Source of the DNA: Pseudorhodoferax sp. Leaf274
GTDB lineage: Bacteria; Pseudomonadota; Gammaproteobacteria; Burkholderiales; Burkholderiaceae_C
NCBI RefSeq assembly: GCF_001422445.1
Contig: NZ_LMNA01000012.1
Location: 372,001 to 436,000, forward strand
Length of the DNA: 64,000 nt
Direction of reading: 5' to 3'
Shown here: positions 31,312 through 41,133 of the stretch, in pieces
How the letters are laid out: the number at the start of each line of letters is the position of its first letter
How positions within the stretch are numbered: position 1 is the stretch's first letter
The notes under the pieces: generated by a model
Told to the model about the DNA's origin: nothing
Databases searched by the model: none
The model's input: only the letters and a program-made list of their open reading frames with translations
Made by a program: the position numbers and the translations under genes

Positions 31312-32880
31312 TCACACCTCGCCACGCCGTATGGCGTCGGCCCGCAGCGCGATCGCGCCGCGTTCGGCATCGGACAGCCGCGCCAGGTTCTGCACCTGCG
31401 CCCGCATGCGCGGGTGCGCGGCGAAACGCTGCGCGTGGCGCGCCAGGAAGTCCCAGTACAGGGTGGTGAACGGGCAGGCGCTGTCGCCCGTGCGCTCCGC
31501 GGGCTGGAAGCGGCAGTGCCGGCAGTGGTCGCTCATGCGTGCGATGTACTGGCCGCTGGCCACGTAGGGCTTGCTGCCCAGCAGGCCGCCATCGGCGAAC
31601 TGGCCCATGCCCAGCGTGTTGGGCAGCTCCACCCATTCCACCGCGTCCACGTAGACGGCCAGGTACCAGGCGTGCACCTGCACCGGCTCCACGCCCAGCA
31701 GCAGCGCATACAGGCCGGTGACCATCAGCCGCTGGATGTGGTGGGCATAGCCCAGGTCCAGCGTCTGGGTGATGGTGTCGCGCAGGCATTCGCGGTCGGT
31801 CCGGCCGGTCCAGTACCAGTCGGGCAGCGGGGCGTGGGCGTCGAGCGCGTTGCGCTCCAGGTAGCCCGGCATCTCGCGCCAGTAGATGCCGCGCACGTAT
31901 TCGCGCCAGCCCAGGATCTGGCGGATGAAGCCCTCGGCGCAGGCGATCGGCACCTGGCCGCTGCGGTACGCCGCCTCGGCCCGCGCGATCACCTCGCGCG
32001 GCTCCAGCAGCTTCAGGTTCAGCGCCGCGCTGAGCTGCGCGTGGTAGAGCCAGGGCTCGCCGCCCCACATCGCGTCCTGCCAGTGGCCGAAGAACGCAAG
32101 CCGCTCGCCGATGAAGGCGTCGAGCGCCTGCAGCGCCTGGGCGCGTGTGACCGGCCAGGCAAATGCGTCGAGCCGGCCCGGGTGGCCGGCGAAGCGCGCA
32201 CGCACGAGCGCGATCACCTCTTGCGTGGTGGCGTCGGGCGGGAAGGCCGCGGGCGGCGGCAGGAAGCCGGGGCCGTCGCGGCCGAAGGCGGCGCGGTTGT
32301 CGGTGTCGAAGTTCCAGGCACCGCCGGCGGGGGCGTCGCCGTCCATGAGCACGCGGTGGCGCCGGCGCATGGCGCGGTAGAAGTGCTCCATCACCAAGGC
32401 GCTGCGGCCTTCGGCGTAGCGCTGGAAAGCGGCCGGCGTGCACAGGAAATGCCGGTCCTCGCGCGCGTCCAGCGGCACGCCGCTGCTGGCAGCCACGGCG
32501 TGCAGGGCTTCGCGCACGCGCCACTCGCCAGGCTGCACCAGCACCACCGCGGCGGGCCGCAGCCGGGCCAGCGCCGCGCCCAGCTCGGCGGCCAGCGTGC
32601 CGCGGTTGCCCGCGTCGTCCAGCCGGCGGTAGTCCACGTGCAGGCCTTCGCCGCGCAACGCATCGGCGAAGTGCCGCATGGCCGCCAGGAAGATGGCGAT
32701 GCGCGGCTGCGTGCTCCAGACCTGGGTGGACTCCTCCAGCACCTCGGCCATCCAGACCCGGTCCTGCGCGGGATCGAAGCCGTCGAAGGCGGCGGACTGC
32801 CGGTCGAGCTGGTCGCCCAGCACCACGACCAGGTGGCGCACGCCGCAGGGGGGAGCGTCCAGCGCGGGGGGAGGGGTCAT
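31312..32880 (-). CDS. Iron-sulfur cryptochrome/photolyase family protein
   Basis: A 522-residue FAD protein of the prokaryotic (6-4) photolyase / FeS-BCP group. An N-terminal Rossmann-like antenna domain (HLVVVLGDQLDRQSAAF) precedes the helical FAD domain. Four cysteines match the [4Fe-4S] spacing of this group: Cys365, Cys453, Cys456 and Cys469 (CRHC, then Cys 13 residues on). RQILGWREYVRGIYW and LPNTLGMGQFADGG are conserved. Expected role: light-dependent repair of (6-4) photoproducts, possibly blue-light sensing. It is divergent from the tctD-type response regulator with 80 bp between starts. Confidence 0.92.
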   Translation of the reverse strand: MTPPPALDAPPCGVRHLVVVLGDQLDRQSAAFDGFDPAQDRVWMAEVLEESTQVWSTQPRIAIFLAAMRHFADALRGEGLHVDYRRLDDAGNRGTLAAELGAALARLRPAAVVLVQPGEWRVREALHAVAASSGVPLDAREDRHFLCTPAAFQRYAEGRSALVMEHFYRAMRRRHRVLMDGDAPAGGAWNFDTDNRAAFGRDGPGFLPPPAAFPPDATTQEVIALVRARFAGHPGRLDAFAWPVTRAQALQALDAFIGERLAFFGHWQDAMWGGEPWLYHAQLSAALNLKLLEPREVIARAEAAYRSGQVPIACAEGFIRQILGWREYVRGIYWREMPGYLERNALDAHAPLPDWYWTGRTDRECLRDTITQTLDLGYAHHIQRLMVTGLYALLLGVEPVQVHAWYLAVYVDAVEWVELPNTLGMGQFADGGLLGSKPYVASGQYIARMSDHCRHCRFQPAERTGDSACPFTTLYWDFLARHAQRFAAHPRMRAQVQNLARLSDAERGAIALRADAIRRGEV

Positions 32881-32960: not shown

Positions 32961-33641
32961 ATGCACATCCTGCTCGTTGAAGACGACGAAGCCCTGGCCA
33001 CCTCGGTCGCCAGCGCGCTGCAGGCGCAAGGCTGGCGCGTGGACGTGAGCGACCGCGGCGAGCCCGTGCCGCGCTCGCTGGCCCAGGACGCCTACGACCT
33101 GCTGGTGCTGGACCTGGGCCTGCCCGGCATCGACGGGCTGGAAACCCTGCGCCGCGTGCGCGCGAGCGGCTGGCTGCTGCCGGTGCTGGTGCTGACCGCG
33201 CGCGACAGCGTGGAGGACCGCGTCTCCGGCCTGGAGTCCGGCGCCGACGACTACATGTGCAAGCCCTTTGCCCCGGCCGAGTTGGTGGCCCGGTTGCGCG
33301 CGCTGGTGCGCCGGCACGAGAACCGGCGCGAAGGCAGGCTGGCGCTGGCGGCCCTGCGCTTCGACCCGCAGGGCATGCGCGCCTGCATCGGCGAGCAGGC
33401 GCTGCCGCTCAGCGCGCGCGAATCCACGGTGCTGCAGTACCTGATGACCCGGGCCGGCCAGGTCGTCTCGCGCGAGCAGCTCATGGCGCTGGTGCCGGGC
33501 TGGGCCGCGGGCACCTCCGACAACGCACTGGAACTGCTGGTCTCGCGCCTGCGCGCCAAGATCGAGCCGGGCGGCGTGCGCCTGCGTACCGTGCGCGGCC
33601 TGGGCTACCTGCTGGAGGCTGCGGAGCCCGATGGCGCCTGA
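32961..33641 (+). CDS. tctD: OmpR/PhoB-family response regulator (TctD-like)
   Basis: A 226-residue response regulator. The receiver domain has acidic pair Glu7-Asp8-Asp9, phospho-acceptor Asp51 (VLDLGLPGIDG), and Lys101 (YMCKPF). A winged-helix DNA-binding domain of the OmpR type follows (DNALELLVSRLRAKIE, RTVRGLGYLL). Its stop overlaps the sensor kinase start by 11 bp. The TctD name rests on the tctBA genes downstream, the usual targets of TctDE control by citrate or other tricarboxylates. Confidence 0.88.
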   Translation: MHILLVEDDEALATSVASALQAQGWRVDVSDRGEPVPRSLAQDAYDLLVLDLGLPGIDGLETLRRVRASGWLLPVLVLTARDSVEDRVSGLESGADDYMCKPFAPAELVARLRALVRRHENRREGRLALAALRFDPQGMRACIGEQALPLSARESTVLQYLMTRAGQVVSREQLMALVPGWAAGTSDNALELLVSRLRAKIEPGGVRLRTVRGLGYLLEAAEPDGA

Positions 33642-35034
33642 GGCGCCCGTGCCGGGGGCGCCGCCGGCCGCGGTGCCCAGCCTGCGGCACGCGCTGCTGC
33701 TCTGGCTGCTGGCACCGCTCGTGGTGCTCGTGCCGCTGGCCACGGCCCTGCTGTACCTGCTGGCCGTGCAGCCGGCCATGGACAGCCTGGACCGCGCGCT
33801 GACCGACACCACGGTGGCGCTCGCGCAGATCCTCGAGGAGCACGAGGGCCAGGCCCGCCTGCCGCTCAGTGCGCAGACCGCGCGTGCGCTGCGGGCCGAC
33901 CTGGTCGACGAGGTGGTGTTCGCGGTGGGCGACGCGCAGGGCCGCCTGCTGGCCGGCGAGCGCGCGCTGCTGGCGCAGGACCCGCACCTGCCGCGCGGCG
34001 ACTGGCGCTTCTTCGACGGCGCACTGCGCGGCCAGGCCATGCGCGTCGTCGCCCACGGCGCGGCCTGTGGCGGGCAGACCTGCCCGATCCTCGTGGCCGA
34101 GTCGCTGGGCAAGCGCGATGCCGCGGCGCGCGCCGTCGTGCTGGCCGCGGGGGGCGTGAGCCTGCTGCTGGCCCTGTGCCTGGCGGTGCTGGCCCGCGTG
34201 GCGGTGGGGCGCGGGCTGCGGCCGCTGCAGCAGGCATCGCAGGAGCTGGAACGGCGCTCGCTGCAGCAGCTCGATCCGCTGCCGTTGCAGCAGTTGCCGC
34301 GCGAGGTGGCCTTCTTCGGCGGCGCCATCAACGCGCTGTTCGGGCGGCTGCGCCAGGCGGTCGGTGTGCAGCGCAGCTTCCTGGACGACGCCTCGCACCA
34401 GCTGCGCACGCCGCTGGCGGTGCTGCTGTCCGAATCGGCCCAGGCACTGGCGCAGCCGCACCCGCCTGAACTGCATGCGCGGCTGCAGCGCCTGCATGCC
34501 GCGGCCGAGCGCAGCGCCCATCTGTCGCACCAGTTGCTGACGCTGGCACGTGCCGAGGGCGCGGCGCTGGAGCGGCGCGACGCTGCGCGCATCGACCTCG
34601 CGCAACTCGTGACCGGGGCCGCCGCCGACTGGGTGCGGCCAGCCCTGGCCGCCGGGCAGGACCTGGGCTTCGACCTGCAGCCCGCGGCGGTGCTGGGCGA
34701 GTCCTGGCTGCTGCGCGAGCTGCTGGCCAACCTGCTGCACAACGCCCAGCAGCACGCCGGGCGCGGCGCGCAGGTGACGGTGCGCACCCGCACCGAGGGC
34801 GGCCACGCGGTGCTGGACGTGGAGGACGACGGCCCCGGCATGGACGCCGCCGACCTGGCCCGCGCCTGGGACCGCTTCCACCGTGGCCGCTCGGCCAGCG
34901 GGCCCGGCACCGGCCTGGGCCTGCCCATCGTGCAGCACATTGCCCAGCTGCACGCGGGCAGCGCCGAACTGCTGGCCGGGCCGTCCGGGCGTGGCCTGTG
35001 CGTGCGTGTGCGCCTGCCGAACGCCGGCGCCTGA
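33631..35034 (+). CDS. tctE: Two-component sensor histidine kinase (TctE-like)
   Basis: A 467-residue kinase. A membrane helix at ~21-46 and another at ~166-190 bracket a periplasmic sensor of the 2CSK_N type, containing a Cys pair (residues 146 and 151, ACGGQTC). The dimerisation/phospho-acceptor helix has His256 (DDASHQLRTPL). The ATPase domain carries N, G1 and G2 boxes (NLLHNAQQH, DVEDDGPGM, GPGTGLGLPIV). It overlaps the response regulator gene by 11 bp and sits 178 bp upstream of tctB, so all four genes could be one regulatory unit. Confidence 0.88.
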   Translation: MAPEAPVPGAPPAAVPSLRHALLLWLLAPLVVLVPLATALLYLLAVQPAMDSLDRALTDTTVALAQILEEHEGQARLPLSAQTARALRADLVDEVVFAVGDAQGRLLAGERALLAQDPHLPRGDWRFFDGALRGQAMRVVAHGAACGGQTCPILVAESLGKRDAAARAVVLAAGGVSLLLALCLAVLARVAVGRGLRPLQQASQELERRSLQQLDPLPLQQLPREVAFFGGAINALFGRLRQAVGVQRSFLDDASHQLRTPLAVLLSESAQALAQPHPPELHARLQRLHAAAERSAHLSHQLLTLARAEGAALERRDAARIDLAQLVTGAAADWVRPALAAGQDLGFDLQPAAVLGESWLLRELLANLLHNAQQHAGRGAQVTVRTRTEGGHAVLDVEDDGPGMDAADLARAWDRFHRGRSASGPGTGLGLPIVQHIAQLHAGSAELLAGPSGRGLCVRVRLPNAGA

Positions 35035-35049
35035 AGCCCCCGTCGCGCG

Positions 35050-35069
35050 AAGCTGTCGCCAAGCTGTCG
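35050..35069 (+). promoter_or_regulatory. Direct repeat upstream of tctBA, candidate response-regulator site
   Basis: AAGCTGTCG occurs at 35050-35058 and again at 35061-35069, an 11-bp period that puts both copies on one face of the helix. OmpR/PhoB-type regulators bind such direct half-sites. It lies ~145-165 bp upstream of tctB and just after tctE. No clear -10 element can be fixed. Confidence 0.45.
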
Positions 35070-35212
35070 TACGTGGTACCCGATAGGGCGGGGCAGCGGT
35101 CCGCCGCCAAGAATTCCGGCACGGCCCGCGGCTTGCCGCCTGCGTGGCCCATAGGCGCCTGCGAAGCCATGTTCCGGCGACGCAGGCGTGGAGACCAACC
35201 CATCGGAAGTTC

Positions 35213-35638
35213 ATGATGATCGACCGCAATCTCGCGAGGGGCCTGTTCCTGGCACTCATCGCATTGGTATTCGGCGGCTTCTCGCTGCAATACCAGACCG
35301 GCTCCCTCGGCCGGGCCGGCCCCGGCCTGTTTCCGCTGATCGTCAGCGGCATCCTGCTGACGATCGCATTGATGATCATCGTGCGTTCGCGCTTCACGGC
35401 GCGCGAGCCGCTGGACCTGAACATCAAGAACATCGGCCTGCTGCTGGTCTCGCTGTGCGTGTTCGCGTTTCTTTCGCTGTACGTGAACATGCTCGTGGCG
35501 ATCGTGGCCATGGTGTTCATCTCGGGCAAGGCAGCGACCACCTACTCGGTGTCGCGCAACATCAAGATCAGCATCGGCCTGATCCTGGTGGCCTTCGCGT
35601 TCCAGAAGCTGCTCGGCCTCTCCCTGCCGCTGATCTGA
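35213..35638 (+). CDS. tctB: Tripartite tricarboxylate transporter, small membrane subunit TctB
   Basis: A 141-residue protein with four hydrophobic segments (LFLALIALVFGGFSL, GLFPLIVSGILLTIALMIIV, LLLVSLCVFAFLSLYVNML, IGLILVAFAFQKLLGLSLPL), the TctB layout. It is the small subunit of the TTT permease, which works with TctA and a periplasmic TctC receptor. Two adjacent ATGs (35213, 35216) are possible starts. tctA follows after 10 bp with a strong ribosome site. Confidence 0.9.
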   Translation: MMIDRNLARGLFLALIALVFGGFSLQYQTGSLGRAGPGLFPLIVSGILLTIALMIIVRSRFTAREPLDLNIKNIGLLLVSLCVFAFLSLYVNMLVAIVAMVFISGKAATTYSVSRNIKISIGLILVAFAFQKLLGLSLPLI

Positions 35639-35648
35639 AGGAGCTGCG

Positions 35649-37163
35649 ATGGACGTCCTCCACAACCTCATGTTCGGTTTCGGCCACGCGCTGACGCTGG
35701 ACAACCTCATGTACTGCGCCCTCGGTTGCACCGTGGGCACCATGGTCGGCCTGCTGCCAGGCCTGGGCCCGCTGGCCACCATCAGCCTGCTGCTGCCGCT
35801 GACCTACTCGATGCCGCTGGACGGCTCGCTGATCATGCTTGCCGGCATCTACTACGGGGCGCAGTACGGCGACAGCGTGAGCGCGATCACGATGAAGATC
35901 CCGCATGCCAGCTCCATCGTGGCCTGCATCGACGGCTACGCGATGACGCTCAAGGGCAAGACCGGATTGGCGCTGTTCACGGCGGGCTTCTCCAGCTTCA
36001 TCGGCGGCACGATCTCCATCGTGGTGCTGGCGTTCCTGGCGCCCACGCTGAGCCAGGTGGCCTTCCTGTTCGGCCCGGCCGACTACTGCGCGCTGATGAT
36101 GGTGGGCTTCGTCTGCGTGAGCTTCGTCACCACGGGCAGCCTGCTCAACGGCCTGGCCATGTGCATGGTCGGCGTGCTGCTGGGCCAGATCGGCACCGAC
36201 GTGAACAGCGGCGTGGCCCGGTTCACGATGGACATGCCTTTCCTGGCCGACGGCATCGGCCTGGTCAGCATCGCGCTGGGCTGCTTCGGCATCGCCGAGA
36301 TCACCAAGAACCTGGACGCCAAGGAAGAGCGCACGCCCTTCAACGGCGCCATCAAGCTGATCCCGACCTGGCCCGAGTTCAAGCGCATCATCCCGAGCGC
36401 ACTGCGCGGCAGCGTGCTGGGCTCCTTCCTGGGCATCCTGCCCGGCGGCGGCCCGGTGATCGCCCAGTTCGCGGCCTATGCCGTGGACAAGAAGGTCAGC
36501 AAGTACAAGCACGAGATCGGCGAGGGCGCCATCGAGGGCGTGGCCGGCCAGGCCGCAGCCGACGAATCGGCCGCGCGCACCAGCTTCATCCCGCTCATGA
36601 GCATCGGCATCCCCGAGAACGCCGTCATGGCACTCATGATGGGCGCCTTCATGATCAAGGGCGTCACGCCCGGCCCGAACCTGATCCCCGAGCATCCGGA
36701 CCTGTTCTGGGGCCTGGTGGCCAGCATGTGGGTGGGCAACTGCTTCCTGCTGATCCTGAACGTGCCGCTGGTGCGCTGGTGGCTCACGCTGTTCAAGATC
36801 CCGTACAGCGTGCTGTTCCCGGCGATCCTGTTCTTCTGCTGCATCGGCTCGTTCAGCGTGAACAACAACGTCGACGACATCTTCGTCACCGCCGCCTTCG
36901 GGGCCATGGGCTACATGTTCATGCGGCTGGGGCTGGACGCCGCGCCGCTGATGCTGGGCTTCATCCTCGGCCCGATGCTGGAGGAGAACTTCCGCCGCGC
37001 CATGCTGCTGACGCGCGGCAGCTTCCTGGAGATGGCGCACCGGCCGATCGCCGGCACGCTGTTCACGCTGGTGGGCTCGTTCATCGTGTGGCAGATGGGG
37101 CTGGCGATCTGGAAGCTGCGCAAGGGGGGCGGGCAGGTGGCGCCTGCGGTGGCGACCCACTGA
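35649..37163 (+). CDS. tctA: Tripartite tricarboxylate transporter permease TctA
   Basis: A 504-residue multi-pass permease. Signature regions are GLLPGLGPLATISLLLPLTY near the N-terminus, YGGSVSAI-type YGDSVSAITMKIPHAS, and a second copy-like LPGGGPVIAQFAAYAVDKKVS. These reflect the internal duplication of TctA. AAGGAG precedes ATG 35649. It moves tricarboxylates or similar organic acids with an ion gradient. No tctC lies next to it. A strong terminator follows. Confidence 0.95.
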   Translation: MDVLHNLMFGFGHALTLDNLMYCALGCTVGTMVGLLPGLGPLATISLLLPLTYSMPLDGSLIMLAGIYYGAQYGDSVSAITMKIPHASSIVACIDGYAMTLKGKTGLALFTAGFSSFIGGTISIVVLAFLAPTLSQVAFLFGPADYCALMMVGFVCVSFVTTGSLLNGLAMCMVGVLLGQIGTDVNSGVARFTMDMPFLADGIGLVSIALGCFGIAEITKNLDAKEERTPFNGAIKLIPTWPEFKRIIPSALRGSVLGSFLGILPGGGPVIAQFAAYAVDKKVSKYKHEIGEGAIEGVAGQAAADESAARTSFIPLMSIGIPENAVMALMMGAFMIKGVTPGPNLIPEHPDLFWGLVASMWVGNCFLLILNVPLVRWWLTLFKIPYSVLFPAILFFCCIGSFSVNNNVDDIFVTAAFGAMGYMFMRLGLDAAPLMLGFILGPMLEENFRRAMLLTRGSFLEMAHRPIAGTLFTLVGSFIVWQMGLAIWKLRKGGGQVAPAVATH

Positions 37164-37298: not shown

Positions 37299-39846
<2,548 letters not shown>

Positions 39847-39854
<8 letters not shown>

Positions 39855-41133
39855 GCAGCCGATCAGCGAGCTTGCGGACATCAATCCGCCACTGACGAAA
39901 CTCCCATCCGATGCAACCATGGTGAGTTTTGTCGCCATGGCGGATGTCAGCGAATCCGGCCGACTGATCTCTCATCAAACGAGACCGTTTGAGCGCGTCA
40001 AAACCGGTTTCACGCGCTTTCAAGACGGTGACATCCTGTTCGCCAAGATCACCCCGTGCATGGAGAACGGCAAGGGGGCGCTTGTTCACGGGTTGGAGGG
40101 AGGCGTGGGTTGCGGCAGCACTGAGTTTCATGTGTTGCGGGCCAAGAATGGCCACGATGCGCGCTACCTGCATCAGTGGCTGCAGTGGGGCGCCACCCGT
40201 GATAAAGCCAAGTTGTTCATGTCGGGCTCGGCGGGGCAGCAGCGCGTGCCATCCGATTTCTTTCGACGTTTTCGCATTCCTGCGCCGGATGGCACCGCGC
40301 AACGGCGCATTGCCGCCATCCTCACCAGCCTCGACAACGCCATCGAAGCCACCGAAGCGCTGATCGAGAAGAACCGGCAGATCAAGGCTGGGCTGATGCA
40401 GGATCTGTTCACGCGCGGGGTGCTGTCTAATGGGCAACTACGGCCGCCGCCCGCCGCGGCCGCCGTACTGTATCGAGATTGGGAGCTTGGCTTCTTGCCA
40501 AAGTCTTGGAACTTGGTTAAGGCAGGTGCGCTTTGCTCCTTGATTACTAAAGGCACAACGCCGTTAGCTTCTGAAATGTGGCAGGGCGCTGATGGGGTGC
40601 GATTTCTGCGAGTCGACAACCTGACTTTCGACGGGCGGCTTTCTTTCGCGGCTAGTGATTTCCGAATTTCTGGAAAAACGCATACGACGACCTTGTCACG
40701 GTCTCGTTGCTTTGTCGGCGACGTGTTGATGAATATCGTGGGACCACCGCTTGGCAAAGTTGGGTTGGTGGAGGACCAGAGTCTCAATATCAACCAGGCA
40801 ATCGCCGTGTTCAGACCTAGCAGCCAAGTGCTTTCGCGGTTTCTGTTGATCTGGCTCACCACAGATTTAGCTAAGCAATGGATTCTTCAGCGCGCGAAGC
40901 AGACTTCTGGGCAGGTCAATGTCACGCTGGCGATGTGTCAAGCGATACCCGTCCCGCTACCTGATTTGGCCGAACAAGAGCGGATCATCGAGCGCTTTGC
41001 TTCGGTGGAACTTCGGTTGCGAGCTGAAGCGGATCAGCTCGACAAACTCCGCTTCAAGAAACTCGGCCTCATGCAAGACCTCTTAACCGGCGAAGTCCTG
41101 GTCACGGTCCCCGCACCCGCCAACGCCGCCTGA
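39847..41133 (+). CDS. hsdS: Type I restriction-modification system, specificity subunit
   Basis: A 428-residue HsdS that reads the bipartite DNA target. TRD1 (~1-145) is followed by the central conserved spacer helices ([25 protein letters not shown], ~152-176), then TRD2 (~205-370) and the matching C-terminal spacer ([18 protein letters not shown]). The TRD2 stretch, about 40440-41050, is visibly richer in A and T than the rest of the gene and of the locus, a usual sign of TRD exchange by recombination. TRD1 lacks the common N-terminal lead. The start overlaps hsdM by 8 bp; the next gene begins 4 bp after the stop. Confidence 0.95.

Follow-up and report, generated by a model that had tools for sequence, protein, structure and literature searches.

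The window analysed here, 64,000 nucleotides of the genome of Pseudorhodoferax sp. Leaf274, carries a cluster of four genes on the plus strand (Table 1). The first two are of the TctDE type, in that a regulator with a receiver and a winged-helix domain adjoins a sensor kinase with a 2CSK_N domain, and tctB and tctA adjoin this pair, as in TctDE-type control of a transporter. We call the regulator TctD-like, and not TctD proper, because it scores 193 bits with the TctD equivalog PRK15479, under the cut-off of 337. The end of tctD overlaps the start of tctE by 11 bp and only 10 bp separate tctB from tctA, so that the cluster has, as an earlier note on this DNA had claimed, a single sizeable gap, the 178 bp from tctE to tctB. 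A tblastn search of the window with one TctC-family query (threshold 1e-8) found no tctC, and none of the 150 scored genomic matches to PF03401 lies inside C12:372001-436000 (150 of 173 candidates were scored). The tctBA pair stands without an adjoining tctC, although the genome as a whole encodes at least 150 members of the TctC family (150 of the 173 candidates scored, all 150 of them at E ≤ 1e-20). Upstream of tctD, and divergent from it, there is a deoxyribodipyrimidine photolyase-related gene (31312-32880, minus strand). Directly after tctA follows a type I restriction-modification methylase-like gene (37299-39854), which is over the Pfam cut-offs for HsdM_N and N6_Mtase and just under the cut-off of the NCBIfam hsdM model; the open frame behind it (39847-41133) reads as a putative specificity subunit.

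Table 1. Genes and sequence features of the tct cluster, in positions of the window
Feature	Position	Strand	Basis
tctD-like response regulator	32961..33641	+	Response_reg and Trans_reg_C domains
tctE-like sensor kinase	33631..35034	+	2CSK_N, HisKA and HATPase_c domains
First half-site, AAGCTGTCG	35050..35058	+	read directly
Second half-site, AAGCTGTCG, 11 bp downstream of the first	35061..35069	+	read directly
Conserved 35-bp block, repeat pair and TACGTGGTACCCGAT	35050..35084	+	alignment of five gaps
TACGT element	35070..35084	+	may extend the box or be the site of a second factor
-10-like hexamer AAGAAT	35109..35114	+	WANANT at conserved spacing
tctB, small membrane subunit	35213..35638	+	Pfam TctB, 46.4 bits (cut-off 29.1)
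tctA, large membrane subunit	35649..37163	+	Pfam TctA, 468.5 bits

The earlier note had also described two exact copies of a repeat with an 11-bp period at 35050-35069, and both copies are there, 11 bp from start to start. They form half-sites in head-to-tail order, spaced by about one helical turn, the arrangement of operators of the OmpR/PhoB family. Of 20,000 first-order Markov shuffles of the gap, 54 contained an exact 9-mer repeat at period 11, and 330 contained one at some period among 10, 11, 12, 20, 21 and 22. Taken alone, the repeat is suggestive and not conclusive, and only moderately beyond chance; it is the comparison with relatives that decides. The 20-base pattern, with up to three mismatches, occurs once in the window against 0.09 expected. 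In the whole genome of this strain AAGCTGTCNNNAAGCTGTCNTA, again with up to three mismatches, was found exactly here and at one other place with three mismatches, while the reversed control gave two; the bare core CTGTCRNNNNNCTGTCR, with up to one mismatch, has 104 places (four of them exact) against 82 for the reversed control. The bare core is not rare in the genome and the fuller pattern is nearly unique, and the scan with AAGCTGTCNNNAAGCTGTCNTA at up to three mismatches returned no second convincing target. The three other exact places of CTGTCRNNNNNCTGTCR were inspected in turn: L042 precedes a TctC-family gene (a PF03401 match) and is oriented the other way, L040 gave no lead, and L039 lies between the end of a kinase and a putatively exonuclease/phosphatase-like gene and resembles a Pho box more. 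L039 contains a Pho-box-like repeat, CTGTCATGCCGCTGTCAC (G000:C6:140920-140936, minus strand), between the end of a sensor kinase gene and the gene downstream.

The check proposed for the repeats, their conservation in the tctE-tctB gaps of close relatives, came out in their favour: this tctE is present in five of the six genomes of the genus that we examined, and the repeat is kept in all five. The sequence common to the five gaps is AAGCTGTC(G/A)C.AAGCTGTCGTA.GTGGTA.CCGAT. Invariant columns make up 31 of the 35 positions of the block and 84 of the 145 aligned positions outside it (Fisher p = 7e-4), and the block is not the sole conserved part of the gap, because conservation is good as well in the bases that adjoin the start of tctB. 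Within 1500 bp before tctD, no copy of the repeat was found in the five genus members. Further downstream, a G+C-rich hairpin is predicted from the five members in the tctB leader (35155-35189); 2 of its 25 predicted pairs are changed on both sides, and it has little covariation support because the pairs are mostly without sequence change. No Rfam family matched 34900-35400 up to E = 1, and a search for plasmids carrying the tctE-tctB gap gave no match.

Beyond the genus, the repeat occurs in other genera with a TctD 64-74% identical to that of the window. A TctA search of 299 genomes of the family gave close orthologs (at least 75% identity; the next match listed has 55%) in 35 genomes, to which G002 and G003 from the genus search were added, making 37 with the genome of the window included. 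The TctD-like protein was searched in these 37, and in G001 and G391, and was counted as close when at least 60% identical, a line set after seeing the identities (the minimum of the lineage is 60%, the next matches are at 50%). The pair CTGTC-N6-CTGTC precedes tctB in 15 of the 18 genomes that have a close TctD, against 1 of the 19 that lack one (Fisher p = 1.3e-6) or, by genus, in 9 of 12 against 1 of 14 (p = 8e-4), p-values that overstate independence because the genomes are related. The table behind them was compiled by hand, with G391 omitted since the motif itself had found that genome. Left uncounted were L129 (a second locus of G141 in which no tctB was found), L139 (a fragment of G118, replaced by L183), L144-L147 (more distant TctA) and G001, which has no such tctA; L128 (G024), with only some 104 bp upstream, was entered as motif-free. 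The exceptions are G281 (a single CTGTC), G128 and G050, with a TctD 60-65% identical and no full pair, and G184, with a weak pair and no close TctD. In Markov-shuffled upstream stretches, the strict pair appeared in 1 of 10,500 and a loose pair in 18 of 10,500. Scanning 399 family genomes for AAGCTGTCNNNAAGCTGTC gave hits in ten, eight of them before tctBA and two elsewhere (G233 and G035).

A named set of 80 close-TctA loci gave the same picture: the pair lies within 260 bp of tctB in all nine loci with a linked TctD at least 68% identical, and in none of the other 71, where TctD was scored by linkage only and the 71 include L212, with less than 120 bp upstream. At periods of 9, 10, 12 and 13 there was no CTGTC pair in any of the 80 loci, so that pairs occur at period 11 only. 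The two sets overlap in part, since seven of the nine loci belong to both. The order tctDE - repeat - tctBA is also seen in Piscinibacter sakaiensis 201-F6 (L238, NZ_BBYR01000007), a PET degrader that used to be named Ideonella sakaiensis.

The pair is kept before tctB in four gene orders of tctDE. It is found there when tctDE lie upstream in the same direction, when they are convergent downstream of tctA (G119, G218, G226, L253), when they are divergent (G118) and when they are unlinked (G330, G391, G261). Because it is kept in the last three of these arrangements, the site is tied to tctBA and not to the gap: the repeat is, judged from these gene orders, a property of the tctBA promoter rather than of the tctE-tctB interval. 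In G330 and G391 the same type of repeat is also present about 90 bp before tctD, which suggests self-regulation in these two genomes; at the corresponding place in G261 there is one clear half only.

Alignment of 18 sites, found by their TGTC pair, places the repeats upstream of a predicted promoter, as in operators of the OmpR/PhoB family. A hexamer of the form WANANT starts 44-45 bp past the second CTGTC in 15 of the 18 sites, and among 1512 scanned positions WANANT matched 16 times, always at offsets 44-46. This spacing is strong but not blind, because TAGAGT, TACAGT and TACATT had been noticed in several sites before the pattern was chosen, and 8 of the 15 sites come from two genera. Three sites (genus g167, in G330, G261 and G391) are without the -10 at the usual spacing and without the usual TACGT flank. 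No sigma-70 pair of -35 and -10 hexamers was found in 34900-35300. If AAGAAT is the -10, the repeats would lie at about -71 to -53, which is a usual position for an activator, and the distance between hexamer and repeat suggests activation by TctD bound near -60. The core of the half-sites is shared by construction, as the sites were selected on their TGTC pair; the AAG that flanks the half-sites is also mostly common to the 18. On the 3΄ side of the repeats, a sequence of the type TA(C/G/A)GT...CCG was recognized by eye in 15 of the 18 sites. As a CrbR/ACTU-type site the TACGT element was rejected, since its letters, compared by eye, do not match those of ACTU in the excerpt of that report available (PMC5715377), while its position is similar.

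We propose that the repeats are, very probably, the operator through which the neighbouring TctD-like response regulator acts on a promoter that tctBA have to themselves. The earlier note had seen in them an OmpR-family site for this regulator, and its claim gains support from the conservation of the repeats and from their co-occurrence with TctD, from which we infer binding. By analogy with the Bordetella and Pseudomonas relatives, TctE, prompted by a carboxylate or by its binding protein, would phosphorylate TctD; a TctD dimer would then occupy the two AAGCTGTC half-sites, head to tail and one helical turn apart, and would recruit RNA polymerase to a promoter that has a -10 and no recognisable -35, a recruitment that would switch on tctBA. 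This is a well-known kind of element, an ordinary regulator switch.

That TctD binds the repeats and activates tctBA is suggested by two precedents, which we compare on the portions of the reports cited. The TctD-TctE system of Pseudomonas aeruginosa likewise consists of an OmpR/PhoB-type regulator and a sensor kinase that control a tripartite tricarboxylate transporter (PMC4513871, PMC10865840), with a TctD motif in the promoter of the transporter; the motif is reported in the tctD and opdH-tctCBA promoters (PMC4513871). The P. aeruginosa operon differs from the tctBA pair of the window in having tctC and a porin gene, and its tctD promoter has the motif, whereas in the genus studied here the 1500 bp upstream of tctD yielded no site. 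In the part of the report seen, this motif is given as a figure only (PMC4513871), and its letters are not comparable with CTGTC. In the BctDE-bctCBA system of Bordetella the two-component genes lie upstream in the same direction, in a separate operon, as in the window, and they are needed for expression of the transporter; the operon includes bctC, unlike the tctBA of the window (PMC5812351). With TpiBA/TphC of Comamonas, the window has in common a tctBA-type pair whose binding-protein gene is elsewhere, a likeness of arrangement (PMC8556258). The excerpts of the open-access literature consulted contain no account of the operator of the window, and no CTGTC motif for TctD in print.

Might TctD occupy the repeats as a repressor, or mainly in co-regulation, with the TACGT element as the true activator site? 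This element is conserved beside the CTGTC repeats and, in other lineages, is found close to another repeat. Yet the box ends about 40 bp upstream of the -10-like hexamer, which is a usual place for an activator. In the parts of the literature cited, TctD opposes PhoB at promoters that both share in P. aeruginosa (PMC4513871); on the other side, expression of Bordetella bctCBA requires bctDE (PMC5812351) and citrate induction of the P. aeruginosa opdH promoter requires both tctE and tctD (PMC10865840). We regard a repressing or mainly co-regulating TctD as improbable.

Smaller still is the probability that the repeats are a Pho box, in which PhoB would bind the CTGTC repeats and tie tctBA to phosphate starvation. 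The resemblance lies in the pair of 11-bp direct repeats and in their GTC core (PMC4513871, PMC8041468, PMC12351708): in the passages cited, PhoB boxes are given as 11-bp head-to-tail units of (T)GTCAT with a 5-nt spacer (PMC4513871) and elsewhere as GTCA(C/T) with a 6-bp AT-rich spacer (PMC8041468), and some P. aeruginosa promoters are shared by PhoB and TctD (PMC4513871). A phoB gene is present in the genome of the window. However, both half-sites of the window read GTCG, not the GTCA(T/C) of the Pho box, and the spacer is not AT-rich; GTCA is found in four of the five genus members, in the first copy only. Moreover, the distribution of the pair tracks TctD and not PhoB. A search of 27 genomes placed PhoB over the cut-off in 26. 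Among the 19 genomes that have no close TctD, PhoB is over the cut-off in 18, and the CTGTC pair is missing from the tctBA promoter likewise in 18. As PhoB is present in nearly all of the genomes without a close TctD, it cannot explain where the pair is present or absent, and as the reader of the site it is rejected on distribution. A chance repeat with no function, for which only the frequency of such 9-mers in the shuffled gaps at about one or two helical turns speaks, has next to no probability, as the pair precedes tctBA in nine genera with the regulator, also in rearranged gene orders and with diverged flanks.

Read as the operator of the TctD-like regulator, what began as a guess from one sequence would be a testable site whose lineage, geometry and target are defined, and this in a genome that encodes at least 150 binding proteins of the TctC type. 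Related tctBA promoters also carry a second type of repeat. RTCAG, like CTGTC, is repeated with an 11-bp period, differs from it in sequence, and was seen in ten tctBA promoters of genomes without a TctD of the window type. Among 90 upstream stretches, RTCAG-N6-RTCAG is present in 24, the CTGTC pair in 9 and both in none; the 90 comprise the 80 above and 10 picked for having RTCAG, a pattern spotted by eye before counting, and some species are counted twice. A second TctD lineage, defined as 61-100% identical to the TctD of G230, is present in all ten RTCAG genomes and in 11 of 27 others (p = 0.0017). Eight of these 11, the genome of the window among them, have both TctD lineages and the CTGTC pair, G281 combines the two lineages with no full pair of either type, and in G317 and G024 only the second lineage is present, again with neither pair. 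Within the first lineage the recognition-helix region is alike, and it is similar in the second too, so that it does not discriminate between them. The association of RTCAG with the second lineage is consistent with regulators having been exchanged at one promoter, and CTGTC and RTCAG promoters on the same orthologous genes would offer a natural pair for studying regulator swapping. Our tentative hypothesis, for which we would claim somewhat less than an even chance, is that orthologous tctBA promoters have swapped regulators, with a CTGTC pair for one TctD lineage or an RTCAG pair for the second, never both in our sample; that the CTGTC box of the window is the sole target of its TctD and sets the dose of one membrane pair, which many of the unlinked TctC-type binding proteins (the genome has at least 150 such genes) may need to share; and that the shared TACGT would mark a third factor. 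In the RTCAG promoters, the first RTCAG is preceded at a distance of 23-24 bp by an element of the TACG type in all 24 loci.
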